DNA of 64,000 nucleotides, taken from the NCBI GenBank assembly GCA_024516155.1, contig JAJJXM010000003.1:744001-808000 (forward strand), given 5' to 3'. This DNA comes from Pyronema omphalodes (taxonomy: Eukaryota > Ascomycota > Pezizomycetes > Pezizales > Pyronemataceae). The notes beneath the pieces were generated by a model. That model was not told the origin of the DNA, ran no database searches, and saw only the letters and a list, made by a program, of their open reading frames with translations. Shown piece after piece: positions 46,258 through 52,481 of this stretch. A program made the position numbers and the translations under genes. Position 1 is the first letter of the stretch, and each line of letters opens with the position of its first letter.

Positions 46258-49200
46258 GATAGAAAGATATGATTGGGGTTGGGGGAGAGTATGAAGTACA
46301 CGGGTATGGGTGATTAAGAGGTGGAAGTATGTATTCTCTGTAAAGATGAAGAGGGGAGAAGAGATGCGGATGGTTCCTGGTATAAGAGGGAAATCTGACC
46401 CCTGATGACCTCCCCCACCCGCAGTGTGGGTGGTATGCGTGGATTGGAGGGGTGTCTCTACATACTGTAGATGCGCAATTGTGGGAGGGGATGCCTCCGC
46501 CGTACGTACCGAGCCGTGCGGACTTTGAATTACCTTCAATACCCCCCCCCCCCCCCCCTGCACGGATTGAATTGGCAGCATGTATAATGGTACGACTGCG
46601 GCGATGATGATATTTTGGGGACGGCCATTGAGCACAGTGCACTAAGGGCGGCCACCACAATCCCCAAATTCCTCATGGGCGCACGCCGTTTTGCCCCTAC
46701 CAGCTGTCACTCGTCCATTCACAATTCCTCAGGGTCGCCCTATCCCACACTCGACCTCGATCTCCTCTCCCTCGTCTCGCTCTGCATGTTGCTCCCGGCA
46801 GTCGTGTGACGAATTGCGGGGTAGACACCCGTTACACCGCTCTATGCGTATCCACAAACCTGCTTGTGGAATATGGCTATATAACGTTCATCTCGATGTA
46901 AATACAAAGAAGTAATTGCAGAATCCGGGGTAGTTTATTCTGGAATAGGTAACCGCCATGATGTCTTGGCTGCATAAGAACGGAGATCTCCCTCTCGGGG
47001 CTGTCCTAAAGCTATAGCTATAGCTCACGTACCCAGAGCTTAGAAGAGCAAAAGAGCAGCAAAAGCCAATGGCAATATCATAACTCGGCGGCGGCTGCAA
47101 TAACAGTCCGTAGCTGCAGCAACAATACCATTATTAGAGAAACATATACCGAGCAAAGTCAATATCGTAAACGCTGCGTAGCATGCACCGCAGATAGACT
47201 ATGTTTGAGCAACGAACTACATACATTTGAGCAACAGACATGACCTGATTTATAATGATGCCATTCACGCACCACAAATTGAATATGTAGATACCAAATT
47301 AACACTTCCATTCTCCCAACCCAACGGCAAAACAGCTGATCAGTCTGCCAATATTCTTATATCTTAGTAATATAGAATCCAAGACCGAGCTAGAAATCAC
47401 TGTCGTAACGCATACGGAATGGAATGGAATGGCATGTTTGGTCACCCACCGTCGCGTGACAACCTTCTCACCCGTCTGCCTGCCACCCCAGGCCCAGGGC
47501 TGCCATGCGCCCAACCAACGCCACTATCGTTTGGCCAGTGCAGACCCCTCCCCCGCGTTGAATCGGTTGGAATCTTCTTTAACCCTGATCTCCTAATCCC
47601 TCCAGTTCGTAGCACACATCAGCGCCACCGAACATCACCCGGCTATCAATCTTTTGATCTGCGACAAACGAAGCAGAGCAAGCATGTCCTCAGCCCCCGA
47701 TTTTCAATAGAATCCTGCACTGCCTAACCCTGTTGTCGGCTCTCCTTCATCCGGCAGCGGGGGGAGAGGGGAATCTTTTGGCGAGCTTGTGAATCATTTG
47801 GAGGTTGTGCGATCGAACGAATCACATCCCGTGGCCTTACACCTACTGCACTATTTTCCTGCGTGTGATCTTGGAATGTCATACCTGTTTCAAAATGTTC
47901 TGAATTTTCCGCAATTAGTCATGGTGGTGTGACTGCTCTTCTGAGTTGTGTATAAAAATGGCCGCGGTGTACCAACTTGACTTCTATTCTCAATATCCAC
48001 GATCCAGCTCGATCGAATGAACCTTCTGATCTCTCATATTGAGTATGACTTTCTGTTTGTTCATATTCGGCATGGAGTTTTCGATATAAGGATACCAGGC
48101 CGTCATCTTTACCTTCTCTTCGGCGTCAACGCTCTAACTAGAGGTGTACCCGGAAACGGATAGAGTATGGTTCAATGATTTACAGACTGCATTTCTTCCA
48201 GGGGTTGTCAAGCGGGGACGCGGGGTAGCCTAAAGGCTCTTCACTTACCTATTGACTGGTTAGCTAGATACTATTTTCATTTGACCGGGTAGATGTTTGC
48301 GATGAGCGGAATTGACTTTTAGCGGCCGTCGATTATTAAACGATATGTTATTCATGTACATGGTCGTGTGTTTCATGCTTTAGACTGGTTAGAAGGAATG
48401 AAGTCGGAGGTGTCCGCTAATTGTACAGCAGCATAAAGCAGCTTGCCAAATAACCGGAATAGGGAGAGCTCCAGCTTCGAACTGTTGACTAAGGATACAG
48501 CTTCACGAACGGACCCCCGAGACCGACGGAGTTCAAACCGTAACCCGCAATCGCTGTGATTTCAATGCATACATCCATTCGGTTGATTCCCTCGATTGAT
48601 ATCAACACTTGATATACCCTTCCACGAGCACCATTTAATCGGCCCACCTTGCCCGCTGACTCGTACGAAACATACCTTCCATCACCGTTGCCCAACCGTC
48701 CGACAGTAACATCCATCGGTTATCCACATCGATTTCGACTCCCCCTATAACGAAAAGTACAAATTGTTTGTTTCTCTTTCCATTAAAAGCAAACACAATA
48801 TTAACTTTTCAGTCGTGCGTAAGGAGCCATCTCGCATCGTGAAACCGTCGTTATTGTGCACCAAAATTGTATATCCATGCACCGGGTCCACGAGGATAAT
48901 ATCCGGTTTCAAACTCGTATTCACTTACATCCTCCACCTCCACGACACACTTGAAACTATCATAAAGCCATACATTATAAATTTTGCGTATCAATTATCA
49001 GAAATATCGTAAGTCTTGGAAGTTCGGTAAATTTAACGTCTTCAGAGACGAGCTTTCGGACTATCACTCGCACTACGAGGCGACCTACAATATCACTAAA
49101 TAACGCTTAATATCACCGGGAATTGTAAGTTCCAATAATATTCTGGACGGCTTAAATATACAGCGGATACAGTCCATGAAACATAATACCCACATCCTCC

Positions 49201-49540
49201 CGGAGCCCTCGACGGATTTAATGAATGAAGACATTTTTTGTAATCTGGGTACGTGCCATAGGACTTCAAACCATTTTGATATTATAGGACGGCCCAACAA
49301 CATTCAACAACCACAAACCTATCGTCGACGGAGTTCCTATATCCTTGAATCCAAATAACCAAAATTGGAAGTATTCCCACATGACTTAACACACTGAAAC
49401 TGCGACATCCAGGCGTATTCAACGCAGTATACCTCTCGTAAAATCTCACAAAAAGCTTGACAAAAATCTTTCAAATTGCAAGTCAACCCACTGTTTCTAA
49501 AAGGAAAATAATGTAGCTCAACCCGGAGGCAACACAACGC
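46258..49540. other. 3.3-kb intergenic region with weak protein-like frames
   Basis: It begins with the promoter of the 189-aa gene, including a 17-nt poly-C tract. A TATA-like GTATAAAAATGG lies near 47950. Minus-strand frames at 48489-48716 (75 codons with ATG) and 49337-49612 (no ATG) look protein-like, but I could not splice them together. They may be remnants or belong to an unmodelled gene. Confidence 0.45.
46542..46558. repeat. Poly(C) tract, 17 nt
   Basis: Run of 17 C on the + strand (poly-G in the sense of the neighbouring minus-strand gene), about 285 bp upstream of that gene's start codon. Confidence 0.95.
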
Positions 49541-49986
49541 ATGACCCACCGGAAATTCATCAAGCACCATGATTCTGAAACCCAACGGCAAGACTCCATC
49601 CTTCACCTTCAACGTCCAGGATTCCTAACGGCAGTAGACGGTATGTTGGTTGTCCTCATAAGTATTTTGTTTCTTCGTTCATAAATCTAATTCCGTAGGA
49701 CCTATATCGACGATCCTACGGCGATTATCCGGCGGCCAACCCGACGATTCTACGGCGTACTCCAGCAACGGACACCCACCAGACCGGCGGTTCGATTCCA
49801 GCAACGTACAGCGCACGGCCCGGTACCCTACCCACCGACAACAGCAGCAAAGGTACATTTCTCCATCTCCATCTTTTCATATCCCCATCTCTCCCTGCCC
49901 CTCCACCTCATGAACTGCAGCTAACACCCTCTTCCAGTAGAAGCCTCCGAGGACCTGTGATTCCTCATCTCATCTTAGCATACTAG
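49541..49986 (+). CDS. Candidate small spliced gene, 100 aa, unknown function
   Basis: Three exons: 49541-49640, 49699-49852 and 49938-49986. The first intron (58 nt) has donor GTATGT, branch TCTAAT and acceptor TAG. The second (85 nt) has donor GTACAT, branch GCTAAC and acceptor CCAG. The frame stays open across both junctions to 100 aa, although each exon alone is short. The protein starts MTHRKFIKHHDSETQR, is basic and polar, contains STILRRLSGGQPDD and a QQQQ run, and has no recognisable domain, signal peptide or membrane helix. The middle exon holds two internal direct repeats (CGACGATnCTACGGCG and CCAGCAACG). The stop codon abuts the hairpin array, so the array would lie mostly in its 3' UTR. 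An antisense frame overlaps exon 1. Splice signals make a + transcript likely; coding capacity is less certain. Confidence 0.4.
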
Positions 49987-50206
49987 AGGGCTCGTGATTC
50001 CTCCATTAGAGGGGGCTCGTGTTCCCCCATCGGTCGCTCGTGTTCGACCTTGGCCGCTCGTGTTCGGTCTGTTTATAGGAATGGAAAAAAAAAGACTGCT
50101 CGTGTTCAGTCATAAATTTTGGGACGATGAGGATGACTGCTCGTGTTCAGTCAAGATGGGGGTCGCTCGTGTTCGACCATTAAAGGAAGGCTGCTCGTGT
50201 TCAGTC
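49949..50206 (+). repeat. Array of nine 18-nt hairpins with covarying stems and a constant loop
   Basis: Units: 49949-49966, 49986-50003, 50011-50028, 50032-50049, 50052-50069, 50094-50111, 50135-50152, 50161-50178 and 50189-50206. Each has a four-base outer stem, a fifth closing pair and an eight-base loop. Outer stems in order are GAGG/CCTC, GAGG/CCTC, GGGG/CCCC, GGTC/GACC, GGCC/GGTC, GACT/AGTC, GACT/AGTC, GGTC/GACC and GGCT/AGTC. The closing pair is A-T, G-T, then G-C seven times. The loop is CCTGTGAT, CTCGTGAT, then CTCGTGTT seven times. Spacing between units is irregular (2-41 nt), so this is not a simple tandem repeat. The only non-Watson-Crick pairs are G-T on the + strand, consistent with pairing in a + strand RNA. 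No named element known to me matches it. Confidence 0.9.
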
Positions 50207-50870
50207 AGGATTTTGGAAGAGCGGGGAGCGGGGGAGGGCGGTAATAGAATGAATGGGATTGGAGGGTGTGTTTTTGTTCGGTGAGCCCTGCCTAATGATA
50301 TAACCCGTAGTTGATGACAATCGTAAATGTTTCTGACAAATTAAAAACAGATGGATATGTTTTTGCATTGTTTTCTTTTCTTTGGGGGGAGTAAGATTAG
50401 AGGTTGTTTGGGTTGTTTATTTTGTATTGTTTTTTATACATGTACTTGCTTTTTTACGGAACATCATACAACATCAAAAAAAGGAAAGACGTGGGATTTA
50501 AGTCAAAGGGTTTGGGGGTCTTTCCAATATCAATTATTTCCACACAAATTTTGTAATGACTCGAGTTATTGTGATTTCGTGGTTTTGATATTTTGATATT
50601 AGTTTGAGCTAGATAATGTGAAATTTGATAATATGGGGTCATATGAAATTTTCTCCACTCCTCAATTCCTCCTATTCAAAACCAGATCAGATCAACCATA
50701 CTTCCATTCATACCCCATCTCAGTCTAGCACCATCCATTTTACCTTATTCTCTCACCTACAACCATGCCCAGCACAAACACTGCCAACGACTTTTCCTCT
50801 ACTTGAAACATCAACATCAACCTATTCTATAAAATTTATTATATTGACATTATTTGTTTCATTCACATAA

Positions 50871-50955
50871 TCCGTTATGGTGTAGTGGCTAGCATCGGCC
50901 GCTCTCAAGCAGAGCATTAATCCGGCCAGACCGGGGTTCAATTCCCCGTAACGGA
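50871..50955 (+). tRNA. tRNA-Glu (anticodon CUC) with a 14-nt intron
   Basis: Acceptor stem TCCGTTA pairs exactly with TAACGGA. The D arm includes GTGTAGTGGCTAGCAT. The anticodon stem GGCCG (50897-50901) pairs with CGGCC (50923-50927). The anticodon CTC is at 50904-50906. The T arm CGGGG-TTCAATT-CCCCG is complete. A 14-nt intron (50908-50921) sits one base after the anticodon, the standard position. Mature length is 71 nt before CCA addition. It decodes GAG glutamate codons. Confidence 0.95.
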
Positions 50956-50958
50956 ATA

Positions 50959-50967
50959 TTTTTTTTT
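50959..50967 (+). terminator. RNA polymerase III terminator of tRNA-Glu
   Basis: Run of nine T beginning four bases after the tRNA 3' end. Confidence 0.85.
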
Positions 50968-51005
50968 ATTTTTCATCTTTTCCTCACTTTTCTCACGAAA
51001 ATTTA

Positions 51006-51039
<34 letters not shown>

Positions 51040-51776
51040 TGGATTAGAACTTTTCTTGTTAAAGAGTTGGATTAAATCTGTTTCTTTATCTTTTATTTGT
51101 TTTTGGAGCATGGAGCCAGCTCCGAATTTTGTGTCTTTGTTCTGGTATGGTGTATTGAATTTGGTTCTTTTTTGGTCTGGTAGTGTTAGTCTGGATCGTA
51201 CCACTTGTATGGAAAGGTTTAACTATATCGGTCAATTTGCATGAGTTTCTTTGTTCATGTATGCATTTTTAGTGGGCCGAAGTGCCCTTTGTTTCGACAT
51301 GCTTCCATGTAAGTTGTGCCTTTATGGTGCATACAGCCTTTCCTTGATAAAGATTAAACTCTGCACAACAATGCTTCTGTTTGACACCTTGGTAGACCTG
51401 GCGACAAATGCCATTACCAACATTGAACTTACGTTGTATTTGAAGAACACATTAATCATTTGAAGTCACGGCTATCAACACGTTGTAAATGGCTAAAAAC
51501 GTTAATTCTGAGATCTTAAAAAAACCAAAGAGCCTCGTTTACGAAACACGCCGAGCGATCGAATCGCAGATCATCATGCCACCTAACAAGTATACCATAA
51601 TAACAAAAAAACAGCCCAAATGAAAAAAAAGCGTCGGTACTTTATTACAAGCAAATGTAGGAAACTTTGTCCTTCATTCCCCATGTTGTAGTCCGATTAA
51701 AAACAATGGCAAACCCGTTAAAAAAACAACCAGAAACACAAAGTACAAACAAAATGACCATTTCCCAGCGAGGCGA
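50968..51776. other. Spacer between tRNA-Glu and SKP1
   Basis: AT-rich, includes the poly-T tract. Open frames up to about 70 codons are unremarkable. The right part should hold the SKP1 3' UTR. Confidence 0.55.
51008..51038. repeat. Poly(T) tract, 31 nt
   Basis: Uninterrupted run of 31 T on the + strand, 52 bp downstream of the tRNA. It could be slippage expansion or the trace of a retroposed poly-A tail on the other strand; no retroposon body is visible. Confidence 0.95.
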
Positions 51777-52481
51777 TTAACGGCTAGGCAACAGTTAGTT
51801 ATCACGATTCATCTTTTAATGGTTGACAAGACTTACTCCTCGGCCCACTCGTTCTCACGACGAATCTGCTCCTCCTCCTCGGCAGTGAAATCGTTCTGGA
51901 TGTTAAATGTCTTGCGGATCTCCTCGGGAGACTTGCCCTTGATCATGTTGGCGACTGTCTTGCATCCAACATCAAGAAGGGGCTTGATGTCGAGGTAGTT
52001 CGCAGCCTAGATGACTGTTAGATATAGGTTCACTTTCAAGAGCCGCCGAAATACGTACGAGGATGATCTCAAAGAGCATCTCCTGGTCAACCTGCATGAA
52101 CTTCTGGTCCCACTCCTCGATATCGGTAGATCGCTTGCGGGAGTCGGACTCCTCATCGTTGGTGGAGGGTGAGTCGCCCTTGTGGTGCTCACACCATTCG
52201 ATGACCTTCTTCAAGACAGCCTCGTTTACCTAGCGTAATGTCATTAGCTAAGTGCTCCACTTGAGCTCACCGGTCGCGTCTTACGTTGGGGATGGGGATG
52301 GCCTCGTCGACCTCTCCAATGTCGTCAAGCATGTTCTTGATGAGGACGGAGCGTTCGGCAACCTCCTTGTCTGTACGCGTATTAGTGCCAGGAAGTTACA
52401 ATAGAGTTAAATGCGACATGGTTGCGTACCGACGACGAGCATGGCCTGGTCGGAACTCATAAGCTTGATCTGAACGCCCAT
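51777..52481 (-). CDS. SKP1: SKP1, SCF ubiquitin ligase adaptor, 161 aa
   Basis: Five exons: 52430-52481, 52285-52370, 52059-52229, 51837-52006 and 51777-51783. Introns are 59, 55, 52 and 53 nt, and the product is 161 aa. It starts [17 protein letters not shown]. It includes the BTB/POZ-like core [34 protein letters not shown] and the acidic linker [18 protein letters not shown]. The C-terminal F-box-binding half contains [37 protein letters not shown]. The last intron (GTAAGT, branch ACTAAC, CTAG) leaves a 7-nt terminal exon that completes the conserved ending NEWAEDR. Ignoring it would give a premature stop after WAEE. Known role: links cullin to F-box proteins in SCF ligases, and also serves in kinetochore and V-ATPase assembly. 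Confidence 0.96.

Follow-up and report, generated by a model that had tools for sequence, protein, structure and literature searches.

Why would nine short palindromes, clustered in the genome of the fungus Pyronema omphalodes, keep one loop sequence while the letters of their stems change and go on pairing? The array occupies positions 49949-50206, plus strand, of the window, by which is meant the whole 64,000-nt stretch of DNA that was analysed (GCA_024516155.1, contig JAJJXM010000003.1, positions 744,001 to 808,000). As the original prediction had it, there are nine 18-nt units, each with a 5-bp stem and an 8-nt loop, and the two at the 5' end carry loop variants. The loop is CTCGTGTT in seven of the nine (units 3-9), CCTGTGAT in unit 1 and CTCGTGAT, one base off the consensus, in unit 2. 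The arms are GAGGA/TCCTC in unit 1 (49949-49966; diverged loop, innermost pair A-T), GAGGG/TCCTC in unit 2 (49986-50003; innermost pair G-T), GGGGG/CCCCC in unit 3 (50011-50028), GGTCG/CGACC in unit 4 (50032-50049), GGCCG/CGGTC in unit 5 (50052-50069; pair 2 is G-T), GACTG/CAGTC in unit 6 (50094-50111) and in unit 7 (50135-50152), which is identical to it, GGTCG/CGACC in unit 8 (50161-50178), identical to unit 4, and GGCTG/CAGTC in unit 9 (50189-50206; pair 2 again G-T). Counted over all five pairs there are seven distinct stems; over the outer four there are six, the number first reported. Pair 1, the outermost, is G-C in every unit. Pair 2 is A-T, G-T or G-C, pairs 3 and 4 take three forms apiece, and pair 5 is G-C save in units 1 (A-T) and 2 (G-T). 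Beyond the 5 bp, the next outer bases pair in unit 7 only. The spacers are 19, 7, 3, 2, 24, 23, 8 and 10 nt long, with a GC content of 29% against 64% in the units. All seven copies of CTCGTGTT in the window lie within the array, a count reached in none of 100 shuffles, and the units are spread over all three reading frames, three per frame.

How well is the pairing kept? All 45 stem pairs are intact: 42 are Watson-Crick and three are G-T, with no A-C and no broken pair (25 G-C, 7 C-G, 5 A-T, 5 T-A and 3 G-T). Two-sided changes have occurred at four of the five pair positions under a constant loop, and the pair types imply at least six of them (one each at pairs 2 and 5, two each at pairs 3 and 4); at pairs 2 and 5, the G-T forms are intermediate between A-T and G-C. 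When the 3' arms are exchanged among the units, 24 of the 362,880 permutations keep all 45 pairs, with a mean of 33.0, and with the seven distinct units only, 4 of 5,040 do as well. The claim that the outer stem bases vary and yet stay complementary is thus confirmed. A statistical test of covariation had also been proposed. The seven distinct rows have a covariation score of 0.952. Shuffles give 0.356 +/- 0.099, none of the 500 being as high, with the caveat that related rows, as these units are, may beat shuffles without any structure. Two other measures on the same rows are less striking, pairs changed on both sides being matched by 31 of 500 shuffles and further pair types by 48 of 500. 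Sliding the partner columns by 1-3 positions lowers pairing to 37-71%. These tests speak against arms that drift independently. By themselves, they cannot separate selection from templated copying.

A constant loop on stems that change while pairing is kept is the pattern found here, and the high-GC units on low-GC, unrelated spacers would fit small structured modules on unstructured linkers. Both count in favor of the reading to which we give a probability of roughly 0.5, that this is a multivalent RNA hairpin array on which a single RNA-binding protein would dock. Could mutation alone have produced it? Copying probably took place, since unit 8 repeats unit 4 exactly and unit 7 repeats unit 6. 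The array might then be a functionless product, an 18-nt palindrome spread by micro-duplication, its arms matched by template switching during replication or repair. The adjacent pairs 3 and 4 often change jointly (GG/CC, TC/GA, CC/GG, CT/AG), like one copied arm, and the evidence on strand that comes from pairing is weak (3 to 0). However, the loop and the inner pair are fixed in units 3-9 while the flanks are unlike, an outcome that recent whole-segment copying would not yield. The flanks resemble one another no more than random 12-mers do (at most 7 of 12 in 72 comparisons; P for at least 7 is 0.014), which bears out the earlier description of irregularly spaced units (2-24 nt apart) with unrelated sequence between them; a repeat search does lengthen the match between unit 6 and unit 9 to 33 nt (82%), partly via the units themselves. 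The G-T pairs at three places are lasting mispairs of the sort that templated repair would erase. Such a process should also act widely, but the window and 134,887 bases of other loci hold no comparable array apart from two sites with three-unit look-alikes (L035, where the period is 13 nt, and L072, the same site as L073); these other loci amount to about 0.2% of the genome and were picked through earlier matches, and are not a measure of genome-wide rarity. Taken together, a purely mutational origin, the leading alternative, seems unlikely, if by no means negligible.

If a docking protein exists, does it have other targets of this kind? Within the window, both strands were scanned for 3 units within 400 nt that share a loop of 5-12 nt and have 3 different paired stems. 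Only this array qualifies; allowing 2 different stems adds simple repeats near 15.9 and 17.3 kb. A pattern search of the 60.8-Mb genome finds no second array with this loop. The exact 10-nt core GCTCGTGTTC has 49 copies in the genome, 7 of them in the array, against 106 for the reversed control. Three of the 42 cores outside the array have four pairing flanks, all three relying on G-T, where about 0.8 of 42 would be expected by chance at equal base frequencies. To judge from these flanks, the other exact cores do not look like targets of the same putative protein. Pairs of the form CTCGTGWT-N10-40-CTCGTGWT occur at 19 places, 7 of which are the array (reversed control, 5), and the other 12 show no set of varied paired stems: one (C178) has four near-identical tandem copies that pair at 4 of 5 positions, another (C113) has one fully paired unit out of four, and the rest pair at 0-3 of 5. 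A covariance model run on 41 loci of this genome (123,110 bases) gives two matches, of 15.1 and 14.9 bits, compared with 21.5-28.5 bits for the source units and at most 13.6 elsewhere in the window. Separately, a near-identical 56-nt stretch with two copies of CTCGTGAT is present five times, four in C231:84457-122195 and one near a contig start (C138:103), and is probably part of a repeated gene or element.

The same counts bear on the possibility that the array works as DNA, through repeated protein sites or cruciforms. CTCGTG resembles an E-box, and a factor reading it could explain why a brief core recurs between palindromic flanks where no genes are recognised. A double-stranded site, however, gives no reason for arms to stay complementary through changes of letter, the three G-T positions would be mismatches in a DNA palindrome, and 5-bp stems with 8-nt loops make poor cruciforms. 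Nor is the core enriched genome-wide. A role at the DNA level is therefore quite improbable.

Outside the fungus, bacterial, archaeal and viral collections contain at least 120 and 23 stretches with two cores 8-38 nt apart. The strands with two or more cores in 143 of these loci carry 371 cores, of which 46 have flanks that pair at four positions; this exceeds the 2% expected by equal-base chance, through recurring flanks such as TCRTG... None of the 143 loci listed has more than two different fully pairing stems; in one (L184), four units are paired and share two near-identical stems between them. These core pairs were provisionally taken as chance or coding matches. Rfam 15 gives no match at the curated cut-off anywhere in the window, and over 49400-50400 only three matches, with E values of 3.9-6.5, far under their cut-offs. 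Among the open-access literature matches listed, judged by title and the start of the abstract, there is no report of such an element, in keeping with the initial impression that it has no name. The pattern searches find one locus, so in its strict form the element is known here from a single locus. That single locus would fit a role confined to this place, a protein whose other targets are looser, or the lack of any role.

Which strand would carry the hairpins? The original prediction took the presence of G-T and the absence of A-C as a sign of selected pairing in a plus-strand RNA. The counts are confirmed (3 versus 0), but the argument built on them is weak: p is 1/8 at best, and two of the three G-T pairs share one stem position and may represent a single event. 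The asymmetry weakly favors a plus-strand RNA. The plus strand is backed separately by two predicted introns just upstream of the array, each with a donor, a branch-like site and an acceptor. The first, 49641-49698 (58 nt, GTATGT...CTAAT...TAG), is separated by a predicted exon (49699-49852) from the second, 49853-49937 (85 nt, GTACAT...GCTAAC...TTCCAG), which ends 11 nt before unit 1 and has alternative acceptors at 49940 and 49943. With these predicted introns upstream, the array is therefore probably in the last exon of a spliced plus-strand transcript. The start of this predicted exon, with the array, spans 49938-50240, and its 3' end presumably lies before the tRNA-Leu at 50871. When 49637-49948 is shuffled 2,000 times, one shuffle has two such introns and three have an acceptor no more than 12 nt from unit 1, figures that are optimistic because the donor list (including GTACAT) was drawn up after the introns were seen. 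A like scan of the whole window returns 27 plus-strand and 42 minus-strand candidates, which cannot all be real. The predicted exon before the array also has internal, diverged repeats at 49708-49823: the 16-nt CGACGATYCTACGGCG is present in two copies at a distance of 34 nt and in a third at 75%, and another repeat, of 27 nt, has two copies (74%).

A minus-strand RNA, with the loop AACACGAG, would have one point in its favor, since most of the hairpins form better on that strand in context. On the other hand, A-C mismatches would then sit in three units, unit 9 forms at 0.01-0.21 across all seven spans tested, and the nearest minus-strand intron candidate is about 170 nt off, compared with 11 nt for the plus-strand intron. 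That the hairpins are carried by the minus strand is thus very improbable.

Would the plus-strand RNA fold into the nine hairpins? As isolated 18-mers, eight of the nine fold as described, at -3.2 to -5.3 kcal/mol; in unit 3, a close alternative wins (-8.4 versus -8.2 kcal/mol). The 303-nt plus strand, however, reaches -98.0 kcal/mol via duplexes between units, against -80.3 kcal/mol with the nine stems imposed, because the CGUG of the loop is self-complementary. Compared with shuffles, its energy has a z of 0.82, and 77 of 100 shuffles fold at least as well (z is -0.61 for the minus strand). The nine stems form at 0.64-0.99 when pairs may span no more than 20 nt; at 30 nt, units 7-9 drop to 0.00-0.13; and with no limit, no unit is above 0.51. 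Of all the results, this modeled folding preference tells most strongly against a plain hairpin array; the plus-strand hairpins would thus depend on a bound protein or on folding locally during transcription.

Perhaps, then, the units are meant for one another, and long duplexes or kissing loops through CGUG would make a large double-stranded or dimerising RNA, such as a substrate for RNase III or Dicer. The minimum-energy fold joins units 6 and 7, among others, and is 17.7 kcal/mol better than the imposed stems; when the loops are replaced by A in silico, eight of the nine hairpins return in the best fold. Between neighboring units, 33 of 40 positions can pair in one direction and 35 of 40 in the other, against an off-diagonal mean of 68%. 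Within units, however, the match is better, 45 of 45, and pairing there is for this reason the better kept of the two; the plus-strand energy is also no better than that of shuffles. Pairing between units is a distinctly unlikely purpose for the array.

If the hairpins are displayed on a plus-strand transcript, what kind of transcript would it be? A possible spliced ORF of 100 codons runs over 49541-49986, from an ATG at 49541 to a stop at 49984-49986, between units 1 and 2. Its codon score is neutral (-0.005 per codon), and a Pfam search with it has no match, so a noncoding transcript is at least as likely as one with the array in its 3' UTR. A second spliced frame has 59 codons, no ATG, a stop inside unit 1 and a codon score of +0.025. 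The frame open over most of the array scores -0.126 per codon, versus 0.056 to 0.221 in the six training stretches, which were scored on themselves, and 10 stretches between 47371 and 50281 have no Pfam match at E <= 1. A protein-coding repeat was rejected on the codon score of the array and on the spread of the units over three frames. Our preference is for a transcript that is noncoding or whose 3' UTR, after a very short ORF, holds the array. It had been suggested that the array might be a docking array or a structured 3' UTR element. The constant loop and the kept pairing support this idea, but the 3' UTR is uncertain with an ORF of this kind.

To the left of the array is a minus-strand ORF with its ATG near 46260, for which a Pfam search gives no match. 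To the right are tRNA-Leu(AAG) at 50871-50956, the exons of SKP1 at 51836-52229 on the minus strand (Pfam Skp1, E 1e-30) and then a GCN2-like gene, also on the minus strand. Genes for Rieske and PP2A proteins are also within the window, and the best Rieske matches include chains that we take to be yeast proteins, which agrees with the fungal source assumed in the original prediction. With these neighbors, the array transcript would be a separate gene rather than the UTR of one already recognised. (On the minus strand at 48748-49624, several stop-free stretches of 47-95 codons overlap and possibly represent a decayed gene; four have no Pfam match, and the two that were codon-scored are both negative.) The tRNA-Leu(AAG) region, 50866-51038, has 39 further matches in the genome at 80-100% identity, three of which reach about 80 nt past the gene at 80-82%, perhaps only via the T-rich tract that follows. 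An origin from a repeat or transposon was rejected, as the flanks (47700-49940 and 50205-51800) match the genome only by a 48-nt pyrimidine-rich stretch and the tRNA-Leu copies.

Are there known systems built in this way? In the transferrin receptor 3' UTR, the IRE/IRP system has several hairpins with one loop sequence and variable paired stems on one transcript. The IRE has an apical hexaloop, CAGUGN, and a conserved unpaired C on the 5' side below the upper helix. The loops of the array, in contrast, are 8 nt long (CUCGUGUU and two variants), the base 5' of the stems is C, A, A, C, T, A, T, G and A in turn, and Rfam gives no IRE match for the array. The bacterial sponge RNAs of the CsrB/RsmZ type also consist of many short hairpins that present one loop motif, and titrate a protein; their loops carry GGA, which is lacking in the loops of the array, and the array locus is fungal. 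The array is thus laid out like an IRE cluster or a CsrB-type sponge, yet by loop length, loop motif and the lack of a fixed C below the stem it is a member of neither. The upper helix of the IRE is given as five base pairs (PMC8466369), the length of the stems in the array. Short palindromes in non-coding fungal DNA also have a precedent in the mitochondrial double-hairpin elements and palindromic repeats, which, in the part of the source consulted, occupy several intergenic regions and are putatively mobile (PMC7218506). Those elements are dispersed. The array, by contrast, has a single location, next to SKP1 and a GCN2-like gene on a contig of 1.6 Mb, and accounts for 7 of the 19 CTCGTGWT pairs. 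Covariation-supported RNA structures are known from fungi as well: 17 structural RNAs are reported for Ascomycota in the sections consulted, some of them in 3' UTRs (PMC8216456). No micro-hairpin array is described in those sections, and the words 'tandem' and 'repeat' are absent from the main text of that paper as it was available.

How might a docking array work? We infer transcription, a binding protein and a role as sponge or point of control, around a spliced plus-strand exon that is itself predicted. The array would lie in the last exon of a transcript that is probably noncoding or has a very short ORF. Each unit would display the loop CUCGUGUU on its 5-bp stem, the letters of which would matter little as long as pairing is kept. 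One loop-reading RNA-binding protein could dock on up to nine units together, and the nine copies would give avidity or titration. The transcript would either sequester the docked protein or be strongly controlled by it. In a more specific and more tentative form, this could be a fungal nuclear lncRNA whose last exon is a nine-site hairpin sponge for the putative loop-reading protein, a eukaryotic counterpart in layout to the CsrB-type sponges, with a loop code that is absent from Rfam.

What does this mean for the biology of such elements? Covariation among paralogous units of a single genome offers an unusual view of selection on RNA structure, one that does without relatives. If the array is an RNA element, its stem variants with one loop are a built-in mutational series, in which the loop would be read and the stem need only pair; these natural variants would make a pulldown of the candidate protein simple. 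Covariation within a locus would then offer a way to find RNA elements confined to one lineage, which comparative screens may overlook.
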